Shown here: piece by piece, positions 55,962 to 64,000 of the stretch
Position numbering within the stretch: position 1 is the stretch's first letter
Layout: the number at the start of each line of letters is the position of its first letter
Source: an uncultured Pelagibacteraceae bacterium
GTDB lineage: Bacteria; Pseudomonadota; Alphaproteobacteria; Pelagibacterales; Pelagibacteraceae
Assembly (NCBI GenBank): GCA_902561155.1
Contig: CACEOY010000001.1
Location: 124,001-188,000, forward strand
Direction: 5' to 3'
DNA length: 64,000 nt
The notes under the pieces: model-generated
Database searches by the model: none
Seen by the model: the letters and a program-made list of their open reading frames with translations, nothing else
Told to the model about the DNA's origin: nothing
Made by a program: the position numbers and the translations under genes

Positions 55962-56972
55962 CTATTTCCAACCTGCTGCTGTCATTACTTCTAATGCATC
56001 AGCTTGTCTTTTTCCGTAATTAACAACTTTAGTTTTAAGATCTTGTTTAAAATCTAAACCCATATTAACTACTAACGGATGAGGTGAAACACCTGTTATC
56101 ATTGGATATTCAAAAGTATTGTTAACAATATGCTCCTGTGCTTCCTGACTTAATAAGAACTCTACAAGCTTAATTGCGTTAGCTTTGTTAGGAGCTCCCT
56201 TTACTAAACCTGCACCACTGATATTCATGTGTGTTCCTCTACCATCCTGATTAGGGAAGAAAGGTTTTACTTTTTTTGCTGCTGCTTGTTGCTCAGCACC
56301 TTTTTTACCTGATAACATAAGAGCTAAGTAGTATGTATTAGCTACTGCAATATCAGCCTCTCCTGCTGCTACTGCTAATATCTGTGCTCTGTCATTACCT
56401 TTTGGAGATCTAGCCATATTCGAAACCATACCTTTTGACCAATCTGCGACTTTACCTTTTCCATTATTTTTTATTAATGAAGCAACAAGTGATTGGTTAT
56501 AAATATTGTTAGAAGCTCTTATTACCAATCTACCTTTCCATTTTGGATCAGCTAAACTTTCATATGTTAACCCTCTTAACTCTGCGCCAGTAACCCTCTC
56601 TGGAGCGAAGTATACTATTCTTGCTCTTTTAGCTATTCCAACCCATTTAGATGTTCTAAAATTACTTGGAACTGCTGACTTGATTGAATTGCTAGTTAAA
56701 CCGCCTTGTAAATTTGCTGCAAATGCGCCAAGTCTGCCAGCATCAGCTGTTATATATAAGTCTGCTGTGCCACCCTCTGCGATTATTCTTTTCTCTAATG
56801 CACCTGATTTTCCAGATACAACATTTACTTTTATTCCTGTTTTAGCTGTAAATTTTTCATACAATTGAACATCTGAATCGTAATGTCTTGCACTGAATAT
56901 ATTTACTTCGTTAGCTAAAAGATTTCCAAAAATAAAAAATAATGCCGTAACCGTTAATATTATTTTTCTCAT
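55962..56972 (-). CDS. fbpA: Ferric iron-binding periplasmic protein (FbpA-like)
   Basis: Periplasmic Fe(III)-binding protein of 336 residues. The signal peptide MRKIILTVTALFFIFGNLLA precedes NEVNIFSARHYDSDVQLYEKF, the typical mature start. The di-tyrosine iron ligands are in ANTYYLALML (Y214, Y215). GAGGGAG stands about six bases before the ATG, and a Fur-box-like sequence lies 46 bases upstream. The operon fbpA - small ORF - fbpB - fbpC follows. Confidence 0.94.
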   Translation of the reverse strand: MRKIILTVTALFFIFGNLLANEVNIFSARHYDSDVQLYEKFTAKTGIKVNVVSGKSGALEKRIIAEGGTADLYITADAGRLGAFAANLQGGLTSNSIKSAVPSNFRTSKWVGIAKRARIVYFAPERVTGAELRGLTYESLADPKWKGRLVIRASNNIYNQSLVASLIKNNGKGKVADWSKGMVSNMARSPKGNDRAQILAVAAGEADIAVANTYYLALMLSGKKGAEQQAAAKKVKPFFPNQDGRGTHMNISGAGLVKGAPNKANAIKLVEFLLSQEAQEHIVNNTFEYPMITGVSPHPLVVNMGLDFKQDLKTKVVNYGKRQADALEVMTAAGWK

Positions 56973-57018
56973 TATCTCCCTCGTTAGTTTTGCGAATGGT
57001 TCTCAATTACATGAGAAT

Positions 57019-57037
57019 GAGAATAATTATCATTATC
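57019..57037 (-). promoter_or_regulatory. Fur box upstream of fbpA
   Basis: The 19-base sequence GAGAATAATTATCATTATC matches the classic Fur consensus GATAATGATAATCATTATC at 16 of 19 positions. It is centred about 55 bases upstream of the fbpA start, where it would cover the promoter. Further GAGAAT-type hexamers extend it on one side. Iron repression of the operon is the expected outcome. Confidence 0.8.
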
Positions 57038-57076
57038 AATAATGTCGCACCTGATACGGGAAAATTATTTGATTAA

Positions 57077-57217
57077 TTATTTTTTGATTAAAGTTTTTTT
57101 CTTGAAGAGATAGTAGAAGTCTGACTGAAGATTATTTTTTGGCTTTAGTATACTAGTTTTTAGCCTACCGTACTTTAGCTCTTTAGCATTTTTAATTCTT
57201 GAAGCTAAGATTCTCAT
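57077..57217 (-). CDS. Possible 46-residue ORF between fbpA and the BASS gene
   Basis: The 341-base gap 56973-57313 holds the Fur box, this frame, and the Zur-type box. The frame (MRILASRIKNAKELKYG...) is basic and has no signal or motif I recognise. There is no clear Shine-Dalgarno site. It may be chance, and I list it only because the gap is otherwise long for this genome. Confidence 0.2.
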   Translation of the reverse strand: MRILASRIKNAKELKYGRLKTSILKPKNNLQSDFYYLFKKKTLIKK

Positions 57218-57286
57218 GAGACTATACTATCATAAGTTGAGTTTAACACAACCCAAGATTGTTTCATTTTGGGCCCTTTTTATATA

Positions 57287-57301
57287 TGTTATATTATAAC
57301 G
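57287..57301 (+). promoter_or_regulatory. Zur-type operator upstream of the BASS transporter
   Basis: TGTTATATTATAACG differs at one position from the perfect palindrome TGTTATATTATAACA found between znuA and znuC in this window. It ends 12 bases before the GTG start and contains a plausible -10 element (TATATT), so a bound repressor would block transcription. The identity of the regulator is inferred. Confidence 0.6.
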
Positions 57302-57313
57302 TCAGAGGAATAA

Positions 57314-58159
57314 GTGGAAATTGCAAAAAGTATAGCGCCAATATGTTTGGCTATAATAATGTTCGGTCTTGGACTAGGTTTAACAGCTCAAGATTTTTTA
57401 AGGGTAATTAAAAATCCTAAAGATTTTTTTATTGGCTTTTTATCACAAGTAATTCTTCTTCCTATAGTGGCTATTATCTTAATAAGTTTAATTTCGTTAC
57501 CTCTTGAAATAGCTCTTGGTGTTATGATTATAGCTTCAGCACCAGGTGGCGTTACATCAAATATTTTAACAAAGTTTGCTGGCGGTGATGTTGCGTTATC
57601 AGTTAGTTTAACTGCTGTTGTAAGTTTACTCAGTATCTTAACAGTCCCTTTTATATTTTTTAATTCTGCTAATTTTTTAGGCTTAGAAATTACAAAAGAA
57701 ATATCGATGATTAATATTGCAGTAAAAATGTTTTTTGTTGTTACTGTGCCGGTTATTTTAGGCATGATAGTAAGAAGCTTAATGACGGAATTTATTGTCT
57801 CAAAAACTTTATTAATTCAAAGATTATCAGTCATTTTATTTTTAGTTGTGTTCATATCTATTTGGGTCGAGGAATGGGATAGAATAGTAAGTTTTATAAC
57901 CAGAGCGGGTCTAATAACTTTCATTCTCAATATTACAATGATTGTTTTAGGTTATTTTATCGCTAAAATTTTTGCTTCGGGTATACCGCAAAGAAAATGT
58001 ATTTCTCTTGAATGTGGTTTACAAAATGGAACTCTAGCGGTGTTTGTAGCAACTCAATTATTTGACGATATTGTATTTATGGTTCCTACGGCTGCATATG
58101 CTCTAATTATGTTTGTAACTTCAATAGTTTTTGTTCTTTTTGTAAGAAAAATTAATTAA
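57314..58159 (+). CDS. Bile acid:sodium symporter (BASS) family transporter
   Basis: A 281-residue membrane protein with eight to ten helices. The family segments are MFGLGLGLTAQDF near the N-terminus, IIASAPGGVTSNILTKFAGGDVALSVSLTAV in the sodium-binding crossover region (about 73-103), and LECGLQNGTLAVFVA. BASS proteins carry organic anions such as bile acids, pyruvate or pantoate with sodium; the substrate here is unknown. The start is GTG with AGAGGA four bases upstream. A Zur-type palindrome overlaps the probable promoter. The end is one base from the convergent proW stop. Confidence 0.9.
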   Translation: MEIAKSIAPICLAIIMFGLGLGLTAQDFLRVIKNPKDFFIGFLSQVILLPIVAIILISLISLPLEIALGVMIIASAPGGVTSNILTKFAGGDVALSVSLTAVVSLLSILTVPFIFFNSANFLGLEITKEISMINIAVKMFFVVTVPVILGMIVRSLMTEFIVSKTLLIQRLSVILFLVVFISIWVEEWDRIVSFITRAGLITFILNITMIVLGYFIAKIFASGIPQRKCISLECGLQNGTLAVFVATQLFDDIVFMVPTAAYALIMFVTSIVFVLFVRKIN

Positions 58160-58160
58160 A

Positions 58161-59027
58161 TTATCTAGATTTTATATTATCTTGTGGAATAATTTTTTGG
58201 GTTATTCGATCTAATATAATTGCTAAAATTACAATACCTGTTCCGCCTATTACAGCACCTCCTATGTCTAATCTACCTAAAGCGACATAAACTGTTAATC
58301 CTAACCCGCCTGCCCCAATTAAGGCTGCAATAACAACCATTGATAAAGCTAACATTAAAGTTTGATTTACTCCAGCCATTATAGTTTTCATTGCTAAAGG
58401 AATTTCTATTTTTCTTAAAATTAAAAACCTAGTTAATCCTAAACTTGCACCTGCTTCCTTAAATCCTTTGCCTACTTGTCTAATACCTAGATTAGTTAAT
58501 CTTACAATTGGTGGTAATGCGAATATAATGGTTGCAATTACTCCCGGTGTTAAGCCAACACCAAATAACATTACAACTGGAATTAAATAGACAAAACTTG
58601 GAATAGTTTGCATTATATCAAGTACCGGTCTTAAAATTGCTTCAAATAAGTTACTTCTTGATGCAACAATGCCTAATGGAATACCAATTAACATACAAAA
58701 AATCACCGCTGTAAAAATCATGGCTAATGTTGTCATTGTTTCTTGCCATAAATCTACTAGATCAATAAAAATTAAACTTAGTGCTGAAAGAATTGCAAGT
58801 TTTATTCCATTTGTTTTAAATGCAAATGCCATGAAAATTAAAATGACTATTGGAAATGGTATAAAGTTAAAAAGAGTGTCTAAACCGTTAAGAACTGAGT
58901 CAATTGGTGCAGATAATTTTTTAAAGAGTGGTCGTTGCATAAACAACCACTCTTTAATATGTTTTTCAATCCATTCTGCTATCGGAATGTATACTTCATA
59001 GTCAGATGGTGAAAGTTTTAAGCTCAC
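58161..59027 (-). CDS. proW: Glycine betaine/proline-type ABC transporter permease (ProW/OpuAB-like)
   Basis: Inner-membrane permease of 288 residues. After a polar N-terminal part come about six helices, including the blocks GIPLGIVASRSNLFEAILRPVLDIMQTIPSFVYLIPVVMLFGVGLTPGVIATIIFALPPIVR and EAGASLGLTRFLILRKIEIPLAM (EAA loop), close to E. coli ProW. The start codon is GTG. It follows the first proX gene by 12 bases. No ProV-like ATPase gene is found in the cluster. Confidence 0.93.
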   Translation of the reverse strand: MSLKLSPSDYEVYIPIAEWIEKHIKEWLFMQRPLFKKLSAPIDSVLNGLDTLFNFIPFPIVILIFMAFAFKTNGIKLAILSALSLIFIDLVDLWQETMTTLAMIFTAVIFCMLIGIPLGIVASRSNLFEAILRPVLDIMQTIPSFVYLIPVVMLFGVGLTPGVIATIIFALPPIVRLTNLGIRQVGKGFKEAGASLGLTRFLILRKIEIPLAMKTIMAGVNQTLMLALSMVVIAALIGAGGLGLTVYVALGRLDIGGAVIGGTGIVILAIILDRITQKIIPQDNIKSR

Positions 59028-59039
59028 TTATCTTAAAGC

Positions 59040-59981
59040 TTACTTAATCCAACTATCGAACGTACTTTGGTTCGCTTTTATCCATTCTGCAGCATGCTTC
59101 TTGATGGCTCTTTCGCTTTTTTCACCCGCATTCATTTTCATGTTTTGCGCAGCGATATCCGCTAGTGGAATAGATGCTTTAGTAAGCATTTTTTTCACTT
59201 TTGGATTAGCTTTTAAGAAGTCTGAATTTGCCGCTGGACGAATGTCATCAGCACCAAAACCCATATTTATTTTAGATTTTGTTGCATTAGGAACGCTAAC
59301 TTTTTTAGTTTGGCTGTAAGGAACTTCTATCCAAACAACATCCTGTCCAAGTTTTAAAGCACCAACAGTCCAATTCGGAGTCCATGTATAAAATAATACA
59401 GGTTTTCCGTTTTTATATTTTGCTACTGCATCAGCCATAGAAGCTGAGTAGTCAGCTTTCACTGGATTAATAAAGTCACCTAAACCAAGTTCAGCAAAAT
59501 GTTTTGTAATTTGCTTCTCACAACCCCAACCTGGAGGGCAAGCAACCATGTCTGCTTTACCGTCGCCATTTGAGTCCCAAGCTTTAGCGTTTGCTTTAAT
59601 ATCCATTACGCTTTTGATACCGTATTTATCAGCTGATTTTTTATCAACTAGGTAACCTTGTAAGCCACCTTTTTTCATAACATAACCAACTTTTTTTACT
59701 TTACCTTTAGCTTCTTTCATATAACCGTCGTGAGTTCCAAACCAACCATTTACCCATAGGTCTAGATCTCCTGCTGCTGCTGCAACATAAAATACTGAAG
59801 GCTTGATTGCTTTAGGTTCAGTTACTTTGTAACCCATTTTTTCCAAAGCTTGTTTGTATATTTCAGCTTGGAAATAACCAGTATCCCAGTTTGCTTTAGC
59901 CATTTTTACTTCGTTTGCATTAACTGCGTTTGTTATAAACAAAGCGGCAATTAACGTTACTAGATGTTTAAAATGTTTCAT
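59040..59981 (-). CDS. proX: Glycine betaine-type binding protein ProX, copy 1
   Basis: Periplasmic binding protein of 313 residues from the ATG at 59981, which has AGGGGG five bases upstream; the ORF track start at 60014 lacks this. The signal peptide is MKHFKHLVTLIAALFITNAVNA. The mature protein is strongly E. coli ProX-like: WDTGYFQAEIYKQALEKMGYKV, LDLWVNGWF, a calcium-type loop DSNGDGKADM, CPPGWGCEKQITKH, and FYTWTPNWTVG with Trp residues of the betaine cage. Betaine or a related quaternary amine is the likely ligand. Confidence 0.93.
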   Translation of the reverse strand: MKHFKHLVTLIAALFITNAVNANEVKMAKANWDTGYFQAEIYKQALEKMGYKVTEPKAIKPSVFYVAAAAGDLDLWVNGWFGTHDGYMKEAKGKVKKVGYVMKKGGLQGYLVDKKSADKYGIKSVMDIKANAKAWDSNGDGKADMVACPPGWGCEKQITKHFAELGLGDFINPVKADYSASMADAVAKYKNGKPVLFYTWTPNWTVGALKLGQDVVWIEVPYSQTKKVSVPNATKSKINMGFGADDIRPAANSDFLKANPKVKKMLTKASIPLADIAAQNMKMNAGEKSERAIKKHAAEWIKANQSTFDSWIK

Positions 59982-60113
59982 GTAATCCCCCTTATTTTTA
60001 TAAAAAACTAGCATGTATAAAAGTTAAATGTAACCGTAATACAACTAAAAGGTGAGTCTTATTTCAAAAATGTAAGTAAAACGGGTGTTATTTAGGAATT
60101 TTTTAAATTTAAA

Positions 60114-61046
60114 TTAATTTATCCAGCTATCAAAAGTGCTTTGATTAGCTTTTATCCATTCTTCAGCGTGTTTCTTAATAGCTTTTTCACTTTTTTCACC
60201 AGCATTCATCTTAAGGTTTTGCTCAGCAATATCTGCTAGTGGTATAGAGGCTTTTTTTAACATTTTTTCAACTTTAGGATTTGCTTTTAAAAAATCAACA
60301 TTTGCTGCTGCTCTAATGTCATTTACACCAAAACCCATATTTAATTTAGATTTTGTTGCATTTGGTACTTTTACTTCTTTTGTATCGCTATAAGGCGCTT
60401 CAATCCAAACTACGTCTTTTCCTAATTTTAATGTTCCAACTGTCCAGTTTGGCGTCCAAGTATAAAATAAGATTGATTTTCCATTTTTGTATCTTGATAT
60501 CGTATCAGCCATAGATGCAGAATAATCAGCTTTTAATGGATTAATAAAATCCCCAAGACCAAGTTCTTCAAAATGTTTTGTAATTATCTTTTCGCATCCC
60601 CACCCTGGGTGACATGCTACTAAATCAGCTTTTCCATCGCCATTAGTGTCGAATTCTTTTGCATGTTTTTTGATATCCATTATTGATTTTATATTGAATT
60701 TGTCAGCTGTTTTCTTATCTATTAGATAGCCTTGTAAGCCACCTTTTTCTACAACATATCCTACTGGCTTAACTTTTCCCATTGCTTCGGTCACATAGGT
60801 ATTATGATTATCAAACCATCCGTTTACCCATAAATCCATATCACCTGCAGCGGCTGCCACATAAAAAACTTGAGGCTTCATTACTGTTGGTCCAGTTACT
60901 TTGTAACCCATTTTTTCAAGAGCTTTTTTATATATTTCTGCTTGAAAATAACCTGTATCCCAATCAGCTTTTCCCATTTTAATTTCTTTAGCATTTAAAG
61001 AAGTTAAGAAAAATAGAGCACTTATAATAGATATAATAAATTTCAT
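60114..61046 (-). CDS. proX: Glycine betaine-type binding protein ProX, copy 2
   Basis: A 310-residue paralogue of the next gene, with the same blocks: WDTGYFQAEIYKKALEKMGYKV, MDLWVNGWF, DTNGDGKADL, CHPGWGCEKIITKHF and FYTWTPNWTVG. The signal peptide is MKFIISIISALFFLTSLNA. The two copies are alike along their whole length and lie in tandem, so they come from a local duplication. The change CPPGWG to CHPGWG and others near the pocket could mean different ligands. No strong Shine-Dalgarno site is seen. Confidence 0.92.
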   Translation of the reverse strand: MKFIISIISALFFLTSLNAKEIKMGKADWDTGYFQAEIYKKALEKMGYKVTGPTVMKPQVFYVAAAAGDMDLWVNGWFDNHNTYVTEAMGKVKPVGYVVEKGGLQGYLIDKKTADKFNIKSIMDIKKHAKEFDTNGDGKADLVACHPGWGCEKIITKHFEELGLGDFINPLKADYSASMADTISRYKNGKSILFYTWTPNWTVGTLKLGKDVVWIEAPYSDTKEVKVPNATKSKLNMGFGVNDIRAAANVDFLKANPKVEKMLKKASIPLADIAEQNLKMNAGEKSEKAIKKHAEEWIKANQSTFDSWIN

Positions 61047-61105: not shown

Positions 61106-61504
61106 TTAACTTCTTTTACAGGTTGTACATAAACCATAAAATTCTAAATTATATTTTTTATAGATCATGCCGGTTTTGTCATGAAAATTTTTTAAATATT
61201 TAGAAAGTTTTTTGTCGCTAATTTCAGTTACCTTTTCGCATGTTTCACAAATTGAAAAAGCGGTAGCTTTTGATATTTCACAATTAGAACTTTTACAGGC
61301 TACGAATGCATTTTTACTTTCCACTTTATGAATTTTACCAAGCTTAATTAATTTTTCTAAAGCTCTATAAACTTGAGGAGGAGCTTTAATACCCTTTTTT
61401 TTTACATTAAATAGAATTGAGTAAGCTTTAACCGGTTCTCTAGATTTTTCGATAATATCAAAAACTATTTGCTGATTTTTTGAAAGATTATTTTCTTTAT
61501 TCAT
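61106..61504 (-). CDS. zur: Fur-family zinc uptake regulator Zur
   Basis: A 132-residue Fur-family repressor. The winged-helix part has APPQVYRALEKLIKLGKIHKVESKNAFVAC, the PPxVYRALxxLxxxGxIHxxES pattern being typical of Zur instead of Fur. Structural zinc cysteines are C86/C89 (CETC) and C126/C129 (CTTC), with C70 and C75 near the sensor site. It lies 24 bases after znuB in the order znuC-znuB-zur, which supports autoregulation with the zinc importer. Confidence 0.92.
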   Translation of the reverse strand: MNKENNLSKNQQIVFDIIEKSREPVKAYSILFNVKKKGIKAPPQVYRALEKLIKLGKIHKVESKNAFVACKSSNCEISKATAFSICETCEKVTEISDKKLSKYLKNFHDKTGMIYKKYNLEFYGLCTTCKRS

Positions 61505-61528: not shown

Positions 61529-62332
61529 TCAATTTTTCAATTTAATCGATTGTTTAATTTTTAATAATGAAAGTATGAATAAAAATAAAGCAGCAGCTAT
61601 AATTGAAGGTCCTGAAGCTGTATTAAATTCTAAAGAAGTGAATAAACCTAAAATTACAGACAGCAATCCTCCAATCACTGAATAAATTACCATCATTTGT
61701 GGGCTCGAAGAAATATTTCTAGCCATTGCAGCTGGTATAATTAACATTCCTGTAATTAATAATAGTCCAACCATTTTTATTGAAATAGCAATGATGCCTG
61801 CCATTAAAATAGTAAATATAGCTTTAGCTCTATCAGGGTTTAAACCTTCAGCTTCTGCTAATTCGTAGTTTACTGTTGATGCAAATAAAGGTTTCCATAT
61901 CAATTTAAGAATTATTAATATTAACGGACCACCTATCCATATAATGAATATATCATCAGTTGTAACTGCTAATATGTCTCCAAATAATAATCCCATAATA
62001 TCGAACCTAATAAATGTTAAAAATCCAATAACAACTAGTCCAACTGCTAAGGATGAATGAGCTAAAAGTCCTAGTAAAGCATCGCCAGGAAGATTAGTTC
62101 TTTTTTGCAGATCTATTAGAATTAACGCAATTAAAGATGAAATTATAAAGACTGAAATGGCAATATTAAATTCCAAAGAATAGGCAAGTGTAACTCCAAG
62201 TAAAGCGGAATGAGCAAGAGTATCACCAAAATATGACAATCGTCTCCATATGACGAAACATCCAAGGGGACCTGTTACAATTGCAATACCAAGCCCAGCT
62301 ATTAAAGCTCTTATAAAGAAATCATCTAACAT
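61529..62332 (-). CDS. znuB: Zinc ABC transporter permease ZnuB
   Basis: Membrane subunit of the zinc importer, 267 residues with about seven to eight helices. GPLGCFVIWRRLSYFGDTLAHSALLGVTLAY is the ABC-3 family signature near the N-terminus, and KMVGLLLITGMLIIPAAMARN lies later. It is adjacent to znuC and zur. Confidence 0.95.
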   Translation of the reverse strand: MLDDFFIRALIAGLGIAIVTGPLGCFVIWRRLSYFGDTLAHSALLGVTLAYSLEFNIAISVFIISSLIALILIDLQKRTNLPGDALLGLLAHSSLAVGLVVIGFLTFIRFDIMGLLFGDILAVTTDDIFIIWIGGPLILIILKLIWKPLFASTVNYELAEAEGLNPDRAKAIFTILMAGIIAISIKMVGLLLITGMLIIPAAMARNISSSPQMMVIYSVIGGLLSVILGLFTSLEFNTASGPSIIAAALFLFILSLLKIKQSIKLKN

Positions 62333-63079
62333 TTAATTTTTTTTTATCTTTCCTTCATTTGTATGAATGTGATCGTGTCTGTGTTCGTATCTTGACAATA
62401 TTTGAGAAGCCTGTTCTCCGAATAAAGCTTTATATTCATTATTTTTTGCAACCTCTATTGGAGATCCTGAGCAACACACATGACCATTTAGGCAAACAAC
62501 GTGATCCGTAGCACTCATTACAGTATGCAAGTCGTGGGAAATTAATAAAATTCCACAATTTAATTCTTCAGAAATTTTCTTTATAAGTTCGTATAAGGCA
62601 ATTTCACCTGTAAAATCAACTCCCTGTACCGGCTCATCAAGAACTAGTAATTCTGGTTTTTTTGAAATCGCTCTTGCAAGCAGAACTCTTTGAAATTCTC
62701 CACCTGATAAGTCTCCTAAATTTTTATCTTTAAGATGTATAACGCCCGTTAATGATAAAGCATCGTTAATAGTTTCCTCTTTAAGATTTTCAGTAAGTAC
62801 CATGAAATTACTTACTCTTAGTGGTAATGTCCAATCAATTGAAATTTTTTGAGGAACATACCCAACTTTATTTGTATATTTTTTAGCTTCCCCATTAATT
62901 TTTTTATAGATACCAAGTGCAATTTTTGCGGTTGTGCTTTTTCCAGAACCATTCGGACCAATAAGAGTAACTATTTTACCTTTTTCAATCTGTAGAGATA
63001 CATCTTTAACAAGCCATTTATTATTTATACGAAGACCTGCTTGTTTTAATTTTACTAAGATATTTTGATTTGAGCTCAT
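62333..63079 (-). CDS. znuC: Zinc ABC transporter ATP-binding protein ZnuC
   Basis: ATPase with Walker A GPNGSGKSTTAKIALGIYKK, signature LSGGEFQRVLLARAI and Walker B LLVLDEPVQGVD. The C-terminal tail has the His-rich SRYEHRHDHIHTNEG typical of ZnuC. I use the ATG at 63079 (248 residues) because the longer ORF starts with GTG (63088). It is divergent from znuA with two Zur-type boxes between. Confidence 0.95.
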   Translation of the reverse strand: MSSNQNILVKLKQAGLRINNKWLVKDVSLQIEKGKIVTLIGPNGSGKSTTAKIALGIYKKINGEAKKYTNKVGYVPQKISIDWTLPLRVSNFMVLTENLKEETINDALSLTGVIHLKDKNLGDLSGGEFQRVLLARAISKKPELLVLDEPVQGVDFTGEIALYELIKKISEELNCGILLISHDLHTVMSATDHVVCLNGHVCCSGSPIEVAKNNEYKALFGEQASQILSRYEHRHDHIHTNEGKIKKN

Positions 63080-63100
63080 TTTTATCACTTGACTTTCAAA

Positions 63101-63115
63101 TGTTATATTATTACA
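63101..63115. promoter_or_regulatory. Zur-type box 1 in the znuC/znuA intergenic region
   Basis: TGTTATATTATTACA is a 15-base near-palindrome (one mismatched pair) matching the alphaproteobacterial Zur core TGTTATAnTATAACA. It is nearer znuC. Confidence 0.75.
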
Positions 63116-63118
63116 TAC

Positions 63119-63133
63119 TGTTATATTATAACA
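63119..63133. promoter_or_regulatory. Zur-type box 2 in the znuC/znuA intergenic region
   Basis: TGTTATATTATAACA is a perfect 15-base palindrome 18 bases (centre to centre) from box 1 and 19 bases upstream of the znuA ATG. Together they could bind two Zur dimers and shut both divergent promoters. Confidence 0.85.
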
Positions 63134-63152
63134 ACCTTAACATATCTATATT

Positions 63153-64000
63153 ATGAAAAACATTAAAAAATTACCGCTAATAGCATCATTATTATCTCTC
63201 TTAATTATTTTTACTCCGGCAAATGCTGATGTCAAAGTAGTTACTTCAATAAAACCTATACATTCATTAGCAAGTTATTTAATGGATGGAGTTGGTAAAC
63301 CAGATTTAATTGTAGATGGTTATGCATCTCCACATGGATTTGCTTTAAAACCATCACATGCAAAAATGTTACAAAATGCTGACTTAATATTCTGGGTTGG
63401 CGAAGACTTAGAAAATTTTTTAGAAAAACCATTAAAATCAATAGCAAAAAAAGCTGAAAAAATAGAATTAATGGAAATTAAGGGTTTAAAAAAATTAAAA
63501 TTTAGAGAAAGAAATATATTCGAAGGGCACGATGATCATGGGCATGATGAACATAAAGAACATGGTCATAAAGAAGATAAACATGATGATCATCACGAGC
63601 ATGCTCATGGTGAACATGATCCACATATCTGGCTTGATCCAATGAATGCAAAAGTAATTTTAAGTGAAATGGCAGAGCATCTAATTGAAAAAGATCAAGA
63701 AAACGCATCTAAATATAAAGCTAATTTAAAAAAAGCACACAAAGATTTAGATAAACTTACGAAAAAAGTAAAATCTGAATTAAATAAAGATTTTAAATCA
63801 ATTGTTTTTCATGACGCCTATCAATATTTTGAAAAAAGATTTGATGTGAATGTCTTGGGAGCTTTCACAGTAAATACAGATGTATTACCTGGTGCTGAAC
63901 AATTGTCTGAAATTAGAGAAGTGATTGAACATGAAAAAGTAAGTTGTGTATTTTCTGAACCTCAATTTAACCCAGATATAATCAAAGCAGTAGCAAAGGA
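63153..64000 (+). CDS. znuA: Zinc-binding periplasmic protein ZnuA, 3' end cut by window edge
   Basis: The frame is open from ATG 63153 to the window end (282 codons), so it is missing from the ORF track. It begins with a signal peptide (KKLPLIASLLSLLIIFTPANA). Zinc ligands are H61 in SPHGF, H158 in DPHIWLDP and the His of IVFHDAYQYF. A His/Asp-rich loop (about residues 126-155, with many HD/HGH repeats) is the flexible zinc-capturing loop of ZnuA. It is divergent from znuC, with two Zur-type boxes in the gap. Confidence 0.95.
   Translation, partial: MKNIKKLPLIASLLSLLIIFTPANADVKVVTSIKPIHSLASYLMDGVGKPDLIVDGYASPHGFALKPSHAKMLQNADLIFWVGEDLENFLEKPLKSIAKKAEKIELMEIKGLKKLKFRERNIFEGHDDHGHDEHKEHGHKEDKHDDHHEHAHGEHDPHIWLDPMNAKVILSEMAEHLIEKDQENASKYKANLKKAHKDLDKLTKKVKSELNKDFKSIVFHDAYQYFEKRFDVNVLGAFTVNTDVLPGAEQLSEIREVIEHEKVSCVFSEPQFNPDIIKAVAK

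Follow-up and report, generated by a model that had tools for sequence, protein, structure and literature searches.

Few cells in the ocean are as numerous as those of SAR11, whose small genomes encode few regulators. In its passages on zinc, the study of Hogle et al. 2016 (PMC4771312) presents zinc uptake as a function that SAR11 kept, a notable exception among trace metals. Families known to be regulated by Zur include COG0523 (PMC2770081) and ZrgABC (PMC6103462). The known substrates of BASS transporters are carboxylates, and in ASBT_NM, the family member from Neisseria meningitidis, the substitution Thr112Val raises the affinity for pantoate (PMC10645422).

The BASS promoter and the zur-znu cluster

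We analysed a window of 64,000 nucleotides (the whole stretch of DNA considered here) from the SAR11 (Pelagibacteraceae) genome G000, which comprises 967,102 bases in 20 contigs and is 83% complete. The genes of interest follow one another in the order fbpCBA(-), a small ORF of 46 aa (-), BASS(+), proW(-), proX(-), proX(-), zur(-), znuB(-), znuC(-), and znuA(+), with the following features:

57252..57273, + strand: terminator-like hairpin with an 8-bp stem and a T run behind it, shortly before the BASS operator
57287..57301, + strand: predicted Zur operator of BASS, TGTTATATTATAACG, a 7-1-7 dyad whose outermost pair is mismatched
57304..57309, + strand: likely ribosome-binding site, AGAGGA, from direct sequence reading
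57314..58159, + strand: BASS/SBF Na+-coupled organic-anion transporter, 281 aa, GTG start (PF01758, ASBT_NM match)
61106..61504, - strand: zur, Fur-family regulator of 132 aa that contains two CxxC motifs and has Zur PRK11639 as its best NCBIfam match
61529..62332, - strand: znuB, permease
62333..63088, - strand: znuC, ATPase
63101..63115, no strand assigned: second Zur-type dyad TGTTATATTATTACA, znuC/znuA intergenic region
63119..63133, no strand assigned: perfect Zur-type palindrome TGTTATATTATAACA (7-1-7, 15 bp), znuC/znuA intergenic region
63153..63998, + strand: znuA, zinc-binding protein, running off the window

According to a preliminary description of this DNA, the site before BASS is one base off the palindrome between znuA and znuC and lies 12 bases before the GTG start. 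Both readings were confirmed: TGTTATATTATAACG differs from TGTTATATTATAACA in its last base (14/14 core bases and 14/15 overall are shared), and 12 bases separate it from the GTG at 57314. It plausibly overlaps a candidate extended -10 element, TGT-TATATT (57287-57295). BASS is regarded as monocistronic because the next gene lies on the other strand.

The zur product matches Pfam PF01475 (FUR) with 28.8 bits against a cut-off of 23.1 and stays under the PRK11639 equivalog cut-off (73 vs 167 bits); judged by its context and best match, it is a Zur-like Fur-family regulator, and by PRK11639 it is not an equivalog of the E. coli Zur.

BASS and the promoters for iron uptake share one intergenic region, in which a Fur-box-like AT-rich palindrome, TGAGAATGAGAATAATTATCATTATC, precedes fbpA at 57005-57040 (minus strand) and is conserved in the clade. 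The small ORF between fbpA and BASS (57080-57217, minus strand) encodes a conserved basic peptide of 46 aa without any Pfam match, and relatives whose neighbouring BASS gene is a different one have it too. The hairpin at 57252-57273 is conserved even where the BASS gene is another paralogue, and for this reason it is probably outside the control of BASS as such. No riboswitch or small RNA exceeded the gathering thresholds in an Rfam scan of 56900-57400, a tRNA scan retrieved none, and the predicted fold of the 200-nt leader was not unusual (z = -1.0).

On the other side of BASS (58161-61046, minus strand), zur is followed by proW and proX in its own orientation; many SAR11 genomes share this arrangement, with one proX gene or two, and glycine-betaine uptake may be co-transcribed with zur and znuCB. 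In two genomes (G073 and G050), the corresponding place near zur is taken by a BASS paralogue that is distantly related (about 30% identity) and lacks the dyad (L092:7787-8620 and L093:6574-7407); this place looks like a gene-exchange site. Moreover, comparison of L074, L076, L078, L079, and L080 with the window shows that znuB, znuC, and znuA occur as two divergent types within a single BASS clade (znuB identity of about 99% vs 74%), and this points to recombination in the znu cluster.

Rarity of the dyad and its assignment to Zur

The preliminary description held that such a match was unlikely to recur by chance next to a start codon, and this was borne out by shuffling and by the number of sites in the genome. 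Allowing up to two mismatches, the window contains four matches (both strands of a palindrome being counted), while 100 shuffles gave a mean of 0.42 and a maximum of 2. In genome-wide pattern searches of G000, the exact 14-mer was found in two copies, one at BASS and one at znu, and the loose dyad YGTTANNNNNTAACR (YGTTA-N5-TAACR) was found only at BASS and znu, compared with nine occurrences of the reversed control pattern. When the upstream DNA of SAR11 is modelled as a first-order Markov chain, a genome should contain 6.4 loose dyads, and the 60 bp next to any one start should contain 4e-4; for the full dyad, the expectation is about 3e-5 per 60-bp promoter.

A second family of the same order (f2, Pelagibacterales) served as an outside calibration for the assignment of the motif. 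In this family, perfect copies precede znuC/znuA, an operon of ZrgA, ABC, FtsX, and DUF3299 genes directly behind zur, and lie between the CobW/COG0523 and DUF1636 genes; this placement before ZrgA, COG0523/CobW, and znu genes is our reason for assigning the motif to Zur. The Zur regulon of f2 is apparently wider, embedding the ZrgA operon, COG0523, and DUF1636 (L099:4411-12067, L100:6203-8205), and in a further genome (G181) the same palindrome is located before a TonB-dependent receptor gene.

A weight matrix was then built from the znu, zrg, and cobW sites only, leaving out the BASS sites. It gave the BASS site of the window a score of 20.4, compared with 21.3 for znu and 10.1 for the next unrelated site in the window; its background was one match of 12 or more in 896 kb. 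Scanned over the upstream regions of the BASS orthologues, the same matrix separated the 14 promoters with the dyad (10.9-21.3) from those without it (6.6 or less).

Distribution among BASS orthologues and an apparent independent gain

The upstream regions of 121 BASS orthologues from the genus were gathered and scanned. A zur-linked clade of 15 genomes, including G000, has in common the BASS-zur synteny and a promoter of the type found in the window. The palindrome proved to be present in most of this clade and absent from nearly all the other orthologues: GTTA-N5-TAAC is kept in 13/15 members, 25-50 bp before the start, and no dyad is found in 105 of the 106 orthologues outside the clade, three of which (G114, G020, and G026) are also linked to zur. 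This distribution implies that the regulation is specific to a lineage and not general to the BASS gene. The sole exception is G006.

The sites of the clade take the forms TGTTATATTATAACG (two genomes), TGTTACATAGTAACA (five), TGTTACATTATAACA (two), TGTTACAAAGTAACA, GGTTACAAAGTAACA, and CGTTATTTTGTAACG, with TGTTATAATATAACA at a shifted position in G098; the two remaining members, the close relatives G105 and G108, carry a degraded site. Positions 1 and 6 (T/C), which vary among the BASS sites, also vary in the znu sites of the clade genomes. A paired-change test on the nine distinct BASS sites was not significant; hence, the argument from conservation is that the core of the dyad is kept, and not that compensatory changes occurred.

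In G006 (AG-919-I13, contig CACMRM010000003.1; L184), BASS is located between an HTH gene and a tRNA-Leu gene and not near zur, i.e., at the ancestral, unlinked locus usual for the genus. A perfect TGTTATAATATAACA lies 25 bp before its ATG, in DNA absent from the closest relatives, and the genome harbors zur and two znu dyads. In the BASS tree, most inner branches of which are weakly supported, G006 falls among unregulated sequences, outside the zur-linked clade; to explain the dyad on this tree, two gains and a loss are needed, and starred branches force two of these three changes. From these sequences, the dyad seems to have been gained independently in G006, and this gain represents the strongest single argument that BASS itself is the target, and not linkage or the neighbouring small ORF.

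Operator identity, genome-wide rarity, position over the likely promoter, conservation, independent gain, and membership of the BASS family are the basis on which we consider it very likely that Zur controls BASS in a lineage-specific manner, in one clade and one independent lineage (G006). In this form, the suggestion of the preliminary description that zinc status regulates the gene is supported. That Zur binds, in which direction it regulates, and what BASS carries are inferred from the sequences and can be depicted as follows. Zur, a Fur-family repressor that senses zinc and whose gene lies 4 kb away, would have the palindrome at 57287-57301 as its operator. When zinc is sufficient, a dimer of Zn-Zur would sit on the 15-bp dyad, over the likely -10 element and transcription start, and would block the monocistronic transcription of BASS; upon zinc starvation, Zur would be released and BASS would be made together with ZnuABC.

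The transporter, the alternative readings, and the known systems

The BASS protein matches Pfam PF01758 (SBF) with E = 3.6e-31 and 108.8 bits against a cut-off of 24.3, and it stays below the cut-off of TIGR00841 (bass; 178.5 vs 326.3 bits). Its nearest solved structure is ASBT_NM (3zuy/8oyf; E = 6.5e-30), with which it aligns over residues 8-264. The Na+-site motifs S-N (Ser114-Asn115) and E-x-G-x-Q (Glu260...Gln264), whose Glu260 and Gln264 we take to be Na+ ligands, are conserved, and the equivalent of the pantoate ligand Asn265 is kept; the two proteins differ at Thr112-Ala113, which is Val-Thr in BASS. To our knowledge, there is no report of zinc regulation for ASBT_NM. Similarly, PanS, the ketopantoate/pantoate transporter of Salmonella, belongs to the same superfamily and is matched over residues 9-263, but BASS lies far under the equivalog cut-off (NF047939; 85 vs 400 bits). 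Furthermore, pantoate auxotrophy is unsupported as a reason for BASS, panB being present in G000, where no obvious demand for pantoate import is seen, and in 133/169 genomes of the genus.

The most likely substrate, to judge from these residues, is a small organic acid resembling pantoate or a keto acid. BASS was also considered as a dedicated partner of znu, and this was rejected, since the two are not associated: among genomes at least 80% complete, znuB is found in 32/38 with BASS and in 7/9 without it (Fisher p = 0.64). Moreover, the cross-over motif LECGLQN (LECGLQNGTLA) is identical in 80/80 regulated and unregulated orthologues. The lack of association with znuB, the pantoate- or keto-acid-like residues, and the constancy of LECGLQNGTLA favour a general organic-acid carrier over a zinc carrier. 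Of the two cargoes proposed in the preliminary description, the metabolite is more likely than the zinc chelate; an importer of metabolites that was recruited to the response to zinc starvation is the favoured prediction. BASS would then work as an elevator-type importer, coupled to sodium, and bring in a small organic acid, a carboxylate whose supply would matter when zinc enzymes fail, zinc itself not being carried. Metabolic compensation under zinc scarcity is a tentative proposal for its role, somewhat short of an even chance. We regard as evenly balanced the broader statement that, in some SAR11, zinc starvation turns on the import of a specific organic acid, either because the acid is made or used by a pathway that depends on a zinc enzyme or because the acid itself delivers zinc, and that Zur control of this import evolved at least twice.

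An alternative that differs on the role only, Zur control being common to both, is that BASS takes part in zinc acquisition proper, importing a small organic ligand that carries zinc or recovering an exported one. Co-regulation with znuABC and the Zur-controlled metallophore systems described in the relevant part of PMC6103462 speak for it. Nevertheless, it appears unlikely in view of the occurrence of BASS with or without znuB, of the cross-over motif shared with unregulated orthologues, of the carboxylates known as BASS substrates, and of the fact that no metallophore genes or outer-membrane receptor were seen next to BASS among the ORFs of the window and their Pfam matches.

Other readings concern the site itself. 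It might be merely a strong extended -10 (TGT-TATATT/TGT-TATAAT) and no operator, given that TGTTATAAT/TGTTATATT fits TGN-TATAAT and that the site is located where a -10 is expected in AT-rich SAR11 DNA. However, a genome that necessarily has hundreds of promoters contains just two sites with such dyads, so that the pattern is not spread over many unrelated promoters; the same dyad is doubled at znu, and the clade variants TGTTACATAGTAACA, CGTTATTTTGTAACG, and TGTTACAAAGTAACA lose their likeness to a -10 and keep the dyad, which makes this reading very improbable. Even less credence can be given to binding by another dimeric regulator: G000 encodes three Fur-family proteins, and one of the other two (C6:62237 and C6:46588) might be concerned, but the dyad matches the znu, ZrgA, and COG0523 operators, presumably differs from Fur- or Irr-type boxes, and lies about 280 bp from the distinct Fur-like box before fbpA. 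A chance match inherited by one clade, which the common ancestry of the 13 clade sites and the non-significant paired-change test would allow, has an equally slight probability when set against a dyad that arose twice, independently, at one and the same gene, against the divergence of the flanks around a core that stays, and against an expectation of about 0.003 full dyads across the 106 BASS promoters outside the clade.

The claim of Zur control is sharp, embedding one operator, one gene, and one small regulator, and the natural variants, degraded in G105/G108 and independently gained in G006, represent a built-in set of controls. The presence on BASS of the same switch as that of zinc uptake, together with its second gain, implies that zinc shortage probably changes what the cells take up. 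If this is true, a two-target Zur regulon couples zinc uptake with a carrier of organic acids that is driven by sodium, and the zinc concentration of surface waters would be tied directly to the uptake of dissolved organic carbon.

No BASS gene was found as a Zur target in the open-access literature searched; as far as this literature shows, with the SAR11 protein a Zur regulon would for the first time include a member of the BASS family, the type of regulon being known and the target family so far unreported. The znu-zur cluster is the same as the conserved SAR11 znuA region with a Fur-family gene described by Hogle et al. 2016 (PMC4771312), whose passages on zinc differ in mentioning neither the operator nor the BASS gene. 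Compared with the proteobacterial Zur boxes, i.e., 7-1-7 or longer palindromes before znuABC in the relevant part of PMC6103462, the predicted operator differs in its target, BASS being absent from the Zur targets listed there. It resembles them in being a 15-bp AT-rich 7-1-7 palindrome that lies over the core promoter and has zur and znu as neighbours; in related SAR11, this palindrome also precedes the ZrgA and COG0523 genes.
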